A program made the position numbers and the translations under genes. A stretch of DNA of 10,514 bases, from the NCBI GenBank assembly GCA_021157745.1, contig JAGGWA010000069.1, positions 1-10,514 on the forward strand. The letters run 5' to 3'. The notes beneath the pieces were generated by a model. That model had not been told where the DNA came from, made no database searches, and saw nothing but the letters and a program-made list of their open reading frames with translations. This DNA is from Thermoplasmata archaeon (GTDB lineage Archaea; Thermoplasmatota; E2; UBA202; JdFR-43). Positions 5,518 to 8,688 of the stretch are shown here, in pieces (within the stretch, counting starts at the first letter, position 1; each line of letters opens with the position of its first letter).

Positions 5518-6765
5518 TCAATAGCTGTATATATCTGCTTTCATGAATTCTCTAAGCAAAGAAGTGGCATAGCAACCTTTTGGCAGGAAAAACTGCATGA
5601 AAATGCTGCTGCCTTCTATAGCCCATGCTATCCTTTTTAATGGAACGAAAAGGGAGCGGCGCATGCCGGGCGACGCAAGCCATGGCATATATGGCATTTT
5701 AAATTTAGATGGCTCTATGTCCTCTTCCTCCAGTATCCTCGCTTCTATTTCTCCCATTTCTCCCTTTGCAATTTTGCTTTCATAGCCTATTATGACGCCT
5801 GTTGGAAAACATTTCCCTTTTTTGATCCCTCTGTTTATTCTTGCTATGTTCTTCTCGTTTACATACACTCCTTCACTGGAATTTAGCTCTTTCGTAACAA
5901 TGTCTCCCAGAATCGCCTCATTTATAGGAAGGCCTTCTTTTATTCTGGCTGATAGAATTCTATTGAAGATGTAGGATTGGTATGCATGTATGAATATTCT
6001 TATTAAATTTGGAGGAAGTGTTTTAATTGCATTCTCCCAGTCGCCCGGATTTTTTGCAAGATGCTCTATTATTCTTCGCTCAAACTCAAGTTTTTTTGGA
6101 TAAATCTTTAAAGCTTCTTCAAAATCACGGCTTTCTTTCAAAAATTTCCTTGCTTTGTAGCTTTCTTCATCTTCTCCTTCAAAAGGCTCCGCAATATATG
6201 TCATGACAGCCTTTTCGATGTCATTCTCGATCAAATATTTTCCAACCAGATGTGTTATTGGGCGGGCTATCCCAAATCTTTGCACCCCAAAAAAATTTGG
6301 AAAGCTCTTATGGCCATCGATCTCCTTTAAAATTTTGTAGAACTGGCGCGGATTTTCAACATTTCTTATCCATATCCTGAATTTATTTCCAATGAGCATT
6401 CCATGCATTATTGGCTTATTTGTCACATACAAAGGCTCTATTTCCACATCTCTTATGCTTGCATTCAAAATTTTGTGCATTGGAGAAGCTATTGTCATGA
6501 TTTGAACTGTAACCGCTCTTTTATCTTTAATTCCAGCATATCCTATTGCTTTTGGAGATATTTTTATTGCCTTTGCAAGTTGCTCTATAAGCTTATTTGT
6601 CTCCCAATTTTTTGATTTTATCCTTACCACAACATGCTTTCCTTTTGCTGGCTTTGGATATATTGGTAGTTCTTCCACAAAAAAATCTTCAGGATTTTCT
6701 TTTATTTTGCCTTTTATTCCTTCTTCTTTCGTTAAATATACTTCTATTCCAATATCTTTTTCCAT
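5518..6765 (-). CDS. truD: tRNA pseudouridine synthase TruD
   Basis: A 415-residue protein of the archaeal TruD family (the bacterial enzyme makes pseudouridine at tRNA position 13). The catalytic motif GYAGIKDKRAVTVQ lies at 75-88, with nucleophile Asp81. Further family motifs are SFPNFFGVQRFG (154-165), the helix FIHAYQSYIFNRIL (258-271) and the C-terminal FFLPKGCYATSLLREFMK. The start is supported by GGAGG at 6776-6780, in the tail of rpoL, with an 11-base spacing. The first residues run straight into the conserved GKIKENPEDFFVEE segment. It is cotranscribed with csl4, rpoL and a TatD-like gene. In archaea the target may be position 13 and, in some species, position 35 of tRNA; the sequence does not tell which. 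Confidence 0.96.
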   Translation of the reverse strand: MEKDIGIEVYLTKEEGIKGKIKENPEDFFVEELPIYPKPAKGKHVVVRIKSKNWETNKLIEQLAKAIKISPKAIGYAGIKDKRAVTVQIMTIASPMHKILNASIRDVEIEPLYVTNKPIMHGMLIGNKFRIWIRNVENPRQFYKILKEIDGHKSFPNFFGVQRFGIARPITHLVGKYLIENDIEKAVMTYIAEPFEGEDEESYKARKFLKESRDFEEALKIYPKKLEFERRIIEHLAKNPGDWENAIKTLPPNLIRIFIHAYQSYIFNRILSARIKEGLPINEAILGDIVTKELNSSEGVYVNEKNIARINRGIKKGKCFPTGVIIGYESKIAKGEMGEIEARILEEEDIEPSKFKMPYMPWLASPGMRRSLFVPLKRIAWAIEGSSIFMQFFLPKGCYATSLLREFMKADIYSY

Positions 6766-6771
6766 GGGATA

Positions 6772-7038
6772 TTATTCCTCCAATTGGTCAAGCAATTCCT
6801 TAAAATCGCTTTTAAGCTCCTCTATAGCCTTTTTCAAAAAATCTCTCGCCTTTCCTTTTCTTACTCTTAAATAAAACTCTGGATTGCTTATCAATGGATG
6901 ACTCACGCGCCATTCCACAAATTCAACCTCGTTGTATTGCAGCAATTTATTTTTTAAAGGATTGAGCAGGGTCTTTTCTCCAATAACTTCAAACTCGATC
7001 TCCTTTTCCTCATCTTTTTTAATTTTAACTTCCATCAT
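6772..7038 (-). CDS. rpoL: DNA-directed RNA polymerase subunit L (Rpo11)
   Basis: An 88-residue protein matching the archaeal Rpo11/RpoL family, the homologue of eukaryotic RPB11. RpoL pairs with RpoD as the alpha-like assembly platform of RNA polymerase. Diagnostic segments are LLNPLKNKLLQYNEVEFVEW, then RVSHPLISNPEFYLRV, then a C-terminal helix rich in Lys and Glu (DFLKKAIEELKSDFKELLDQLEE). The ATG overlaps the csl4 stop in an ATGA arrangement; a second ATG follows directly, so the true start may be one codon in. A GGTGG just upstream can act as Shine-Dalgarno for either. Linkage of csl4 and rpoL joins transcription and RNA decay genes and is seen in other archaea. Confidence 0.93.
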   Translation of the reverse strand: MMEVKIKKDEEKEIEFEVIGEKTLLNPLKNKLLQYNEVEFVEWRVSHPLISNPEFYLRVRKGKARDFLKKAIEELKSDFKELLDQLEE

Positions 7039-7613
7039 ACCACCCTATCAATATTTCCCATTCCATAATCATCTGCAATTTTTCTTTCTTCCTTTCTCCC
7101 ACAAACAGGGCATTCAAGAGTATTGCCTTTTTTTATTAAAGGTTTTCTACAATTTGTGCAAAATGCTTTTATAACTCCAAGCTCCTTTCCTTTTGTTGAA
7201 ATCTGGATGAGGGGATCAACTTTTATGACTTTCGCCCTTATTATATCTCCTATCCTGTATTTGGTGCTTGGATGTGTGACAAATTCATCACTTATGTTTG
7301 CAATGAATAGGGCTGCGTCATGCTCTCCTGCAATCTGCCTTTTTTTACCTGCCACATGAATTATATCTGTTAAAACAAGGTTGTCCATCCATTGTTTGAC
7401 TTCGCAAATAACCGTATCTCCTTCTTTAAGGACAAGTGGTTTTGCAGTAAGTGGCTCAACAATGGCAAGCATTTTTTTCCTATCTACTTTAAATCTTCCC
7501 AGCATGCTGCTCCTTATTGCTCCATCATCTTGGAATGTGCCTTCTCCAGGCATAAGCTCTTCAGCCATCGCAACGACATCGCCAGGCATTACAATGCTGC
7601 CCTCTTTTATCAT
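7035..7613 (-). CDS. csl4: Exosome RNA-binding subunit Csl4
   Basis: A 192-residue cap subunit of the archaeal exosome, which recruits RNA and partners such as DnaG to the Rrp41-Rrp42 degradation ring. The N-terminal domain (1-62) has the family pattern MPGDVVAMAEELMPGEGTF. An S1 domain follows (about 66-145, GDTVICEVKQ to IQISTKG). A C-terminal zinc ribbon has Cys152, Cys155, Cys168 and Cys171 (CTNC and CPVC). All four zinc ligands are intact. It is the first gene of a four-gene unit. A TATA box 27 bases before the ATG and the lack of a Shine-Dalgarno suggest a leaderless mRNA, which supports this start over any internal ATG. Confidence 0.95.
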   Translation of the reverse strand: MIKEGSIVMPGDVVAMAEELMPGEGTFQDDGAIRSSMLGRFKVDRKKMLAIVEPLTAKPLVLKEGDTVICEVKQWMDNLVLTDIIHVAGKKRQIAGEHDAALFIANISDEFVTHPSTKYRIGDIIRAKVIKVDPLIQISTKGKELGVIKAFCTNCRKPLIKKGNTLECPVCGRKEERKIADDYGMGNIDRVV

Positions 7614-7635
7614 ACAATCCCATAAAAAACCTTGC

Positions 7636-7644
7636 TATATATAT
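7636..7644 (-). promoter_or_regulatory. TATA box of the csl4-rpoL-truD-TatD operon
   Basis: The minus strand reads ATATATATA here, flanked by GG upstream and GC downstream. Its centre is 27 bases before the csl4 ATG at 7613, the distance expected between TATA box and transcription start. Transcription would begin at the start codon. The promoter is back-to-back with that of the plus-strand RNA gene, their TATA boxes being about 42 bases apart. Confidence 0.6.
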
Positions 7645-7677
7645 CCATCGCATGCTGCATCATACATCATACAAAAA

Positions 7678-7686
7678 TTTTATATT
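7678..7686 (+). promoter_or_regulatory. TATA box of the H/ACA RNA gene
   Basis: TTTTATATT lies in an A/T-only tract. Its centre is about 25 bases before the first paired base of the downstream RNA (G at 7707), which places the predicted start right at the foot of hairpin 1. No open reading frame of interest starts there, so the promoter fits a non-coding RNA. Confidence 0.6.
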
Positions 7687-7705
7687 TTAATGAGCATTGT
7701 TTTAA

Positions 7706-7820
7706 TGCCCCATTCGAAGGCCCCTATGAGCAATGATTAGGGGAGCAAGCGTGGGGCAATATGGCGCCTATGGGCCCCTGCGGGATTTGATGACCAGCAG
7801 GCCAACCTAGGTGCCAACAT
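7706..7820 (+). ncRNA. Two-hairpin archaeal H/ACA pseudouridylation guide RNA
   Basis: Hairpin 1: lower stem GCCCCA (7707-7712)/TGGGGC (7752-7757); pocket strands 7713-7720 and 7744-7751; upper stem CCCCTA (7721-7726)/TAGGGG (7738-7743). Its 11-base loop TGAGCAATGAT has UGA facing UGAU, as in an L7Ae kink-loop. The box ATA is at 7759-7761. Hairpin 2: lower stem GGCGCCTA (7763-7770)/TAGGTGCC (7808-7815) with one G-U pair; pocket strands 7771-7776 and 7802-7807; upper stem CCTGC (7777-7781)/GCAGG (7797-7801). Its loop can form GG/CC plus tandem G-A pairs (7784-7785 with 7792-7793) and a bulged A7796. The box ACA is at 7817-7819. Both boxes sit exactly 15 bases below their upper stem, in the 14-16 range of the family. 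The gene is about 59% G+C in AT-rich surroundings and ends in TTTT. It would guide Cbf5-Nop10-Gar1-L7Ae to two uridines in rRNA. Exact ends are estimates. Confidence 0.78.
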
Positions 7821-8688
7821 TTTCCATTTCTTTGATAATTTTCGTTAACACTATGTTATAGCATGCTTTTATTCCATGCTTTTTTCCGACGCTTGCTATC
7901 GCCCCATTTATTTCCTCTATTTCCGTTCTCTTGCCATTCATCACATCCTGCAACATTGAAGAATAGTTATCGGCTGTTTTTTCTATAATTTCCATTGTTT
8001 TTTCAAAAGCGTCGTTGATAACATATCCTTCTTTTCTCGCTATTTTGCTCCCTTCATCACATATTTCCCTGATTAAATTTTCGTATTTCATTATGGCTCC
8101 ATTTTTGCATTTGAAAATCGTTGTAAGAGGATTTATGGCAGAATTTATTATGGCTTTTCTCCATATTTCTTCTTTTATTCTCTCGCTAATCCTTGTTTCA
8201 ATTCCTGCTTCGCTGAAGGCTTTAGCTATTTTTCTTACTCTATTACTCATCTTTCCATCCATCTCGCCTATTATCGTTTCTCCATAGCCAGCGTGTCTTA
8301 TTTTTCCATAATCAATGAATGTTACGCCATGATTTGTTATCCCTCCAATCACATTTTCTTTTCCAACAATGCTCGCTATCTCCTCCTCATTGTTTAGTCC
8401 ATTTTGCAAGCTTAAAAAAGGCAATTTCCCAAATCTTTCAACAGCTTCCTCCACAGCTTTTTTTGTATCGTAAGCTTTCGTTGTCAATATGATAAGCTCA
8501 TACTTGCTTCCATCCCATCTCGTTTTGGGATGAAATATGCCGTTGGTTAGTCCTTCGACGACGAGCCCATTTTTTTCTATAGCTTTTATATGCTTTTCTC
8601 TCCCAACAACCAAAACATCATGCTTTTTTGAGAGCAGGGCAGCGAAAAGCGATCCCAGCGCGCCGGCGCCGTAAACAATTATTTTCAT
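7807..8688 (-). CDS. panE: 2-dehydropantoate 2-reductase (ketopantoate reductase)
   Basis: A 293-residue enzyme that reduces ketopantoate to pantoate with NAD(P)H for coenzyme A synthesis. The N-terminal Rossmann motif is GAGALGS (7-13). Family residues fall where expected from the E. coli enzyme: Lys71 (TTKAYD), Asn96 (LQNG), catalytic Lys178 with Asn182 and Asn186 (WRKAIINSAINPL), Ser244 (YSSMLQD) and Glu256 (GKRTEIEEING). It begins ten bases after the ferredoxin stop with a GGGAGAGG Shine-Dalgarno region directly upstream, so it is likely cotranscribed with it. In archaea pantoate then goes to pantoate kinase and phosphopantothenate synthetase, neither of which is in this window. The last 13 bases or so are antisense to the H/ACA RNA. 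Confidence 0.95.
   Translation of the reverse strand: MKIIVYGAGALGSLFAALLSKKHDVLVVGREKHIKAIEKNGLVVEGLTNGIFHPKTRWDGSKYELIILTTKAYDTKKAVEEAVERFGKLPFLSLQNGLNNEEEIASIVGKENVIGGITNHGVTFIDYGKIRHAGYGETIIGEMDGKMSNRVRKIAKAFSEAGIETRISERIKEEIWRKAIINSAINPLTTIFKCKNGAIMKYENLIREICDEGSKIARKEGYVINDAFEKTMEIIEKTADNYSSMLQDVMNGKRTEIEEINGAIASVGKKHGIKACYNIVLTKIIKEMENVGT
7820..7823 (+). terminator. Short T-run after the ACA box
   Basis: TTTT begins one base after the ACA box at 7817-7819, inside the 3' part of the antisense panE gene. Archaeal RNA polymerase can terminate at short T-runs, and mature H/ACA RNAs end about three bases after ACA. This is weak evidence on its own. Confidence 0.35.

Follow-up and report, generated by a model that had tools for sequence, protein, structure and literature searches.

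Described guide RNAs of the HgcG type

Archaeal box H/ACA guide RNAs share a few geometric rules: the lower stem has 7-9 bp, the ANA box lies 14-16 nt from the pair that closes the pocket, and the K-turn or K-loop is situated ten stacked layers from the pocket (PMC4652768). The Thermococcales H/ACA sRNA known as HgcG, Pab40 or Pf7 consists of three hairpins. The first, Pab40.1, is the guide for L2588 (PMC4652768, PMC6138745), L1932 is given as the target of the second, Pa40.2 (PMC4652768), and the third guides the helix-69 U at E. coli position 1915 (PMC2584109). Pseudouridine 1915 is tabulated for all three domains, archaea, bacteria and eukaryotes (PMC2584109).

Other archaea have related RNAs. 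As described, the Afu4 RNA of Archaeoglobus fulgidus (Af4.1, Af4.2b, Af4.3) is a multi-hairpin H/ACA RNA like the one presented here; in it, Af4.3 closely resembles Pab40.3, and Af4.2b reportedly guides L2601 (PMC4652768). Af4.1 has a listed target in 16S rRNA, unlike the hairpins of the window, both of which have predicted targets in 23S rRNA. The H/ACA hairpins Hvo1 and Hvo2 of Haloferax, directed at L2621 and L1956/1958, are related to Pf7-II and Pf7-III and are separated by a long spacer, which the RNA presented here does not have (PMC2584109). In yeast, snR10 guides Psi2923, the equivalent of U2554, which adjoins Um2921/Gm2922 (E. coli 2552/2553) in the A-loop (PMC9045821, PMC2584109).

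The stretch of DNA analysed here (the window) is 10,514 nucleotides long. Its plus strand between 7706 and 7819 very probably encodes a two-hairpin box H/ACA guide RNA for the U at E. coli position 2496 and for U2554, homologous to hairpins 1 and 2 of HgcG/Pab40/Pf7 and lacking hairpin 3. Structure, covariation, distribution and guide-target complementarity were all computed in this work.

Architecture of the two hairpins

The features of the locus are listed in Table 1. When compared with shuffled sequences, the folding energy corresponds to z = -3.35 for 7706-7761, z = -3.32 for 7763-7819 and z = -3.03 for 7700-7825, which bears out the succession of lower stem, pocket, upper stem and kink-loop that had been proposed for each hairpin from the sequence alone.

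Table 1. Features of the guide RNA locus, numbered as in the window
Feature	Positions	Strand	Basis or remark
Exosome-type gene, ECR1_N/S1 domains	7035-7613	minus	one flank of guide RNA
Promoter-like element: A-rich stretch and TATA-like TTTTATAT	7672-7685 (TATA-like 7678-7685)	+	sequence
Predicted guide RNA, two hairpins	7706-7819	+	sequence, folding, covariation
Hairpin 1	7706-7758	+	fold z; both-sided changes in lower and upper stem
Hairpin 1 lower stem, 7 bp	7706-7712/7752-7758	+	
Hairpin 1 5' guide, TTCGAAG	7713-7719	+	pairs with CUUCGA, E. coli 2498-2503 equivalents
Hairpin 1 upper stem, 6 bp, then U.U	7721-7726/7738-7743	+	
Hairpin 1 K-loop, two facing G.A positions	G7728A7729/G7735A7736	+	
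Hairpin 1 3' guide, GCAAGCG	7745-7751	+	pairs with GCUUGC, E. coli 2490-2495 equivalents
ANA box 1, ATA	7759-7761	+	
Hairpin 2	7763-7815	+	fold z; both-sided changes
Hairpin 2 lower stem, 8 bp	7763-7770/7808-7815	+	
Hairpin 2 5' guide, ATGGGC	7770-7775	+	pairs with GCCCAU, A-loop stem, E. coli 2557-2562 equivalents
Hairpin 2 upper stem, with bulged A7796	7777-7783/7794-7801	+	
Hairpin 2 K-loop	G7784A7785/G7792A7793	+	
Hairpin 2 3' guide, CAACCT	7803-7808	+	pairs with GGGUUG, E. coli 2548-2553 equivalents
ANA box 2, ACA	7817-7819	+	
panE/ketopantoate reductase	7807-8688	minus	Pfam PF02558/PF08546; other flank

Both lower stems are within the 7-9 bp range of H/ACA RNAs and are followed by a pocket with two open sides. 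The sequence-only reading had placed the ANA boxes exactly 15 bases below the upper stems. The coordinates confirm this spacing for both boxes when the count starts at the final Watson-Crick pair of each upper stem (7743 and 7801, respectively); counted from the non-pairing layer, it is 14 nt. In each hairpin, a count by eye gives ten layers from the pocket to the second G.A, with the mismatched one included. The box distances and the layer counts of both hairpins thus conform to the archaeal H/ACA rules.

The bases immediately beside the pockets, G7720/A7744 and C7776/C7802, are unpaired in the window. In the alignment of the class the same layer is paired in none of 61 rows for hairpin 2 and in 23 of 60 rows for hairpin 1, where 21 of the 23 are G.U. 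The outer guide bases of hairpin 2, A7770 and T7808, can alternatively pair with each other within the lower stem. At the foot of the upper stem of hairpin 2, CCU:AGG (7777-7779/7799-7801) hardly varies over the 61 copies found in the class; a single pair is changed, in one of 60 rows. In the f4 relatives the upper stem of hairpin 2 is longer.

Distribution and covariation

A DNA search of 59 genomes found a match in 12, that of the window included. One match, of 20 identical bases in G020, was judged to be due to chance and was dropped, and the remaining 11 sequences, including the window, were aligned and used to build a covariance model. The model finds one copy in each of 61 of the 80 genomes of the class and has no match in the other 19. 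With a threshold of E<=1e-4, 70 of the 389 genomes of the phylum match, including ten that do not belong to the class. In named genomes, a pattern scan hit 14 contigs, 13 of them with Thermoplasmata, Thermoplasmatales or Thermoplasmatota in the title and one with "archaeon".

In the MAFFT alignment of the 11 sequences, 96.5% of the cells are paired. Seven pairs vary on both sides (20 cells), a value reached by none of 500 shuffles; the count of further pair types is not above that of shuffles (122/500). In the 61-row alignment, which was fitted to the model, both-sided changes occur in 24 of 26 pairs (346 cells; 0/500 shuffles). Compensatory changes, which the sequence-only reading had proposed to look for in related genomes, are present in all four helices.

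The pocket cores CGAAG, GCAA, GGGC and CAACC are invariant among the 11 aligned sequences, whereas the apical loops are variable, and box 1 is ACA in seven of these sequences, ATA in three and AAA in one. The hairpin 1 guide pattern GAAG[AG]...GCA[AGT] is found in 59 of the 61 class copies and that of hairpin 2, which joins both guides and includes [CT]AACC, in 57. Four f10 rows (L037, L038, L042 and L043) have TACCC as the 3' guide of hairpin 2 in place of [CT]AACC. In G012 (L034) the guides of hairpin 1 are altered on both strands and those of hairpin 2 are unchanged, so that hairpin 1 has been either retargeted or has decayed; in G018 (L103) the hairpin 1 guides are not recognisable.

Targets in 23S rRNA

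The genome of the window gave no rRNA match. The targets were therefore sought in G016, which belongs to the same family (f1), and in other relatives; an LSU sequence was found in 21 of the 80 class genomes. The target strings that had been written out in the sequence-only reading gave no outstanding rRNA site. Because the bases beside the upper stems are unpaired, these strings assume one base too many on each side, and the guides with an rRNA match are correspondingly shorter. With this correction both pockets match 23S rRNA.

Hairpin 1 pairs with GCUUGC-UA-CUUCGA (6+6 bp), which presents the U at E. coli position 2496, a C in E. coli itself. Hairpin 2 pairs with the A-loop, GGGUUG-UUC-GCCCAU (6+6 bp), with the spacer at 2554-2556. 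Energies were calculated as a simple stacking sum for the guides of the window against the LSU of G016 and the SSU of G019. The hairpin 1 site has -22.0 kcal/mol, a value that no shuffled rRNA of 1000 attains under any pocket definition (four definitions with two spacers each; closest value -21.7), and the hairpin 2 site has -23.8 kcal/mol, reached by 16 of 1000 in the same test. With the chosen pocket definition, whose boundaries were fixed after a first target scan, neither value is reached in 400 shuffles.

The guides of other genomes were ranked against their own LSU locus, with SSU left out and the spacer fixed at 2 nt for hairpin 1 and 3 nt for hairpin 2. For hairpin 1 the site comes first in all 12 genomes, which are related, so that the ranks are not independent. 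The hairpin 2 site ranks first in 10 of 11 related genomes and second in G022; the twelfth genome, G032, has an LSU fragment that stops before the A-loop. A search for rRNA targets had been suggested in the sequence-only reading, and it thus ended in 23S rRNA for both pockets.

The target spacer of hairpin 2 has 3 nt, compared with the usual 2; a third unpaired target nucleotide is tolerated by Hvo2a (PMC4652768). The guide base that faces position 2557 is U in 44 of the 61 class rows and C in 17, either of which can pair with G. In G035 and G068 hairpin 2 makes only 5+2 bp, the 5' guide contributing 2 bp, and the A-loop stem there has A-U for G-C. U2554/U2555 is almost universal among archaea except Thermoproteota (PMC9976906).

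An unlikely variant of the guide assignment is that hairpin 2 is aimed at 23S U2609 (E. coli numbering) through AGGUUGG-UU-GCUC, the base adjacent to the upper stem being included in the 3' guide. This site is the second best for the guides of the window in the rRNA of G016 (-20.9 kcal/mol, 7+4 bp) and it has the canonical 2-nt spacer. However, it is not conserved, being replaced by GGUUUG, GGUUGGUUU or GGUUGGAUG in the LSUs other than that of G016, and the extra guide base that it needs is A in 42 of the 61 rows. The A-loop pairing of hairpin 2, in contrast, is kept across families f1, f2, f4 and f5.

The hairpin 1 target is probably the counterpart of P. abyssi U2588, the target of Pab40 hairpin 1. 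Two comparisons suggest that L2588 corresponds to E. coli 2496. The 5' guide of hairpin 1 in the RF00064 consensus, CGAGG, is complementary to CCUCG at E. coli 2498-2502, the region that is also complementary to hairpin 1 of the window; and the U residues at 2493, 2496 and 2511 in G019 are spaced like the pseudouridines 2585, 2588 and 2603. A different numbering, in which P. abyssi U2669 is E. coli 2552 (PMC2584109), does not fit the 2588/2496 offset. In this part of the rRNA, the position of E. coli 2504 is occupied by C in G019 and G017 (L014, L049) and by U in the other LSUs read.

Proposed mode of action

In the reading preferred here, that of a guide RNA for 2496 and 2554, Cbf5-Nop10-Gar1 would bind each hairpin at its pocket and ANA box, and L7Ae would bind at the K-loop. 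Hairpin 1 would then capture its 23S segment and isomerise the U at the 2496 position, and hairpin 2 would capture the A-loop and isomerise U2554, with U2555 as the less likely substrate. Both predicted edits, from uridine to pseudouridine, fall in the catalytic centre of the ribosome. U2554 makes contact with C74 of the tRNA in the A site. The genome of the window encodes Nop10, which scores above the cut-off (of Cbf5, Nop10, Gar1 and L7Ae, the search covered Nop10); this is consistent with the presence of the machinery. We infer that the RNA is transcribed and assembled into an RNP, that the modification takes place, and that U2554 is chosen over U2555. Guide function had been put forward as an inference in the sequence-only reading, and the covariation and the 23S targets now make it the best explanation.

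It is improbable, and more so than the U2609 assignment, that the RNA is shaped like an H/ACA RNA and acts as a folding chaperone or processing factor of rRNA, its targets remaining unmodified. The A-loop duplex would open helix 92, and pre-rRNA processing is also said to involve yeast snR10, which targets the same nucleotide of the A-loop (PMC7991803). A pure chaperone, however, would need none of the features that are kept, namely the ANA boxes, the geometry of the pockets, the K-loops and the unpaired U in each predicted duplex.

Relation to HgcG and other guides

With the Rfam HgcG model (RF00064) the window scores 37.5 bits (E 1.4e-7). A search with an archaeal H/ACA covariance model, proposed in the sequence-only reading, thus finds the RNA at the expected place, but with a score below the cut-off of 77. 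Under the stricter filters of the class scan, 16 of 80 genomes match RF00064, none of them above the cut-off, and the genome of the window is missed. A relative from another class of the phylum (L125) scores 92.7 bits over all three hairpins, above the cut-off of 77, and further relatives score 72.5, 69.1 and 68.2 bits. Through these relatives homology to HgcG is well supported, while the RNA of the window falls short of the curated membership score.

Hairpins 1 and 2 of HgcG/Pab40/Pf7 align with the RNA of the window in both order and sequence. Hairpin 2 of the HgcG consensus has GGUCCCC and AACCC, as do relatives of the window RNA. The differences are the third hairpin, which guides helix 69 in HgcG/Pab40 and is lacking here, and the target of hairpin 2, which is given as L1932 for Pa40.2 (PMC4652768) and is predicted to be the A-loop for the window. 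By the arithmetic of the numbering, L2601, the target of Af4.2b, could be the A-loop U. Yeast snR10 is directed at the same A-loop nucleotide as hairpin 2, and its likeness to the window RNA is functional only.

One RF00064 match, in G036, was considered as a copy of the guide RNA and was rejected, as it is positioned apart from that genome's own match to the covariance model of the guide RNA. This locus (L127, C111:2432-2611) has a different, single H/ACA-like hairpin with an A/T-rich stretch upstream and an HgcG score of 32.7 bits.

Genomic surroundings

The RNA had been described from the sequence as lying in a gap between genes. This holds for most of its length, but the stop and last codons of the minus-strand panE gene cover the 3' end of the RNA, so that 13 nt (7807-7819) are shared. 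In six f1 loci (L018, L019, L020, L025, L030 and L032), where panE also overlaps the RNA, the stop codon of this gene lies antisense to where the 3' guide of hairpin 2 begins. A panE-like gene is found downstream of the RNA in 20 of the 61 class loci, about half of the loci having only 500 nt of flank.

That the hairpins serve panE as an antisense element or a terminator, or regulate neighbouring genes, is hardly credible: the RNA 3' end does overlap the panE end in the window and in other f1 members, but a panE-like gene lies beside the RNA in just those 20 loci, and the persistence of the RNA, its pockets and its covariation in loci without the overlap largely refutes such a role. A terminator-like site was not found on either strand in 7600-7900.

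The TATA-like TTTTATAT starts 28 nt before 7706, close to the roughly 25 bases given for a TATA box in the sequence-only reading, and a T-rich box occupies the same aligned columns in the 11-sequence alignment. Class-wide, a crude TATA pattern occurs upstream of 18 of 60 copies, compared with 115 of 868 random 25-mers (13%). A promoter shared across the class is therefore weakly supported. About 1 kb from the guide RNA the window also contains a gene for a TruD-type tRNA pseudouridine synthase (5518-6765).

Probable loss of hairpin 3 and the state of helix 69

A model of hairpin 3 was built from six sequences, four from outside the class (G095, G103, G110 and G126) and two from within it (G023 and G024). 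It matches nine of the ten relatives outside the class, four of which are in the model; G090 is the exception. Within the class it matches 3 of 80 genomes, namely G023 and G024, which are among its six sequences, and G027, with a score of 33.6 bits. The genome of the window, which is 85.5% complete, has no match at E<=0.1 in the stricter-filter scan; low genome completeness and the stricter filters could conceal some copies of hairpin 3. A pattern search downstream of the 61 class copies found hairpin 3 in one, that of G023. Against their own helix 69, the hairpin 3 guides make 6+6 bp in G023 and 8+6 bp in G024.

Helix 69 was read in 18 class genomes by means of a downstream anchor, as a pattern with U1915 fixed had missed many. 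All three genomes with a hairpin 3 match have U1915. Position 1915 is C in 12 of the 18 genomes, ten from f4 (L052, L053, L055, L057, L059, L068 and L069-L072) and two from f2 (L014 and L049), and none of the 12 has a hairpin 3 match. One of the 12, G078, has two LSU genes, one with U1915 and one with C1915, and no match to the guide RNA; contamination is possible there. G016 (L048), the only f1 genome with a readable LSU, has U1915 and C1916 and no hairpin 3 match, and G025 and G029 (f7) likewise combine U1915 with no match. As the sole f1 genome read keeps U1915, the co-loss is not established for the window itself.

The rRNAs of two of these genomes have further peculiarities. In G078 (L051, L068) the 23S gene with U1915 also has C at 2503, and the other has C1915. 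In G033 (L059) the 23S match extends over 3616 bases, compared with about 2920, and the sequence diverges after TAAGGTAA, just downstream of helix 69, possibly owing to an intron.

The balance is even for the broader proposition that a large part of the class has dropped the helix-69 Psi1915, the guiding hairpin 3 having been lost and its target U1915 having become C in the sampled f2 and f4 genomes, while the same RNA guides the A-loop pseudouridine at U2554, the site of yeast snR10.

Implications

The kind of RNA is known. What would be new is its two-hairpin form, the assignment to the A-loop and the co-loss of U1915 in related families. No archaeal A-loop guide is named in the titles or abstract openings of the literature surveyed, and no work on pseudouridine guides of Thermoplasmatota appears in the titles and abstract openings searched, a sample to which most subscription journals do not belong. 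The A-loop guide may have a forerunner in the L2601 guide of A. fulgidus.

The finding would extend a guide RNA of the Thermococcales type to Thermoplasmatota, with both predicted targets in the peptidyl transferase region, and it suggests that archaea and yeast aim the H/ACA machinery at the same A-loop nucleotide. According to a 2021 review, it is not clear whether archaeal pseudouridines have A-site roles like those of eukaryotes (PMC7991803). The predicted A-loop site would provide a named position at which such roles can be tested. The joint disappearance of U1915 and of the hairpin that guides helix 69 would be a natural experiment on a ribosomal modification common to the three domains; if true, it would place a natural co-loss of guide and target together with an archaeal A-loop guide.
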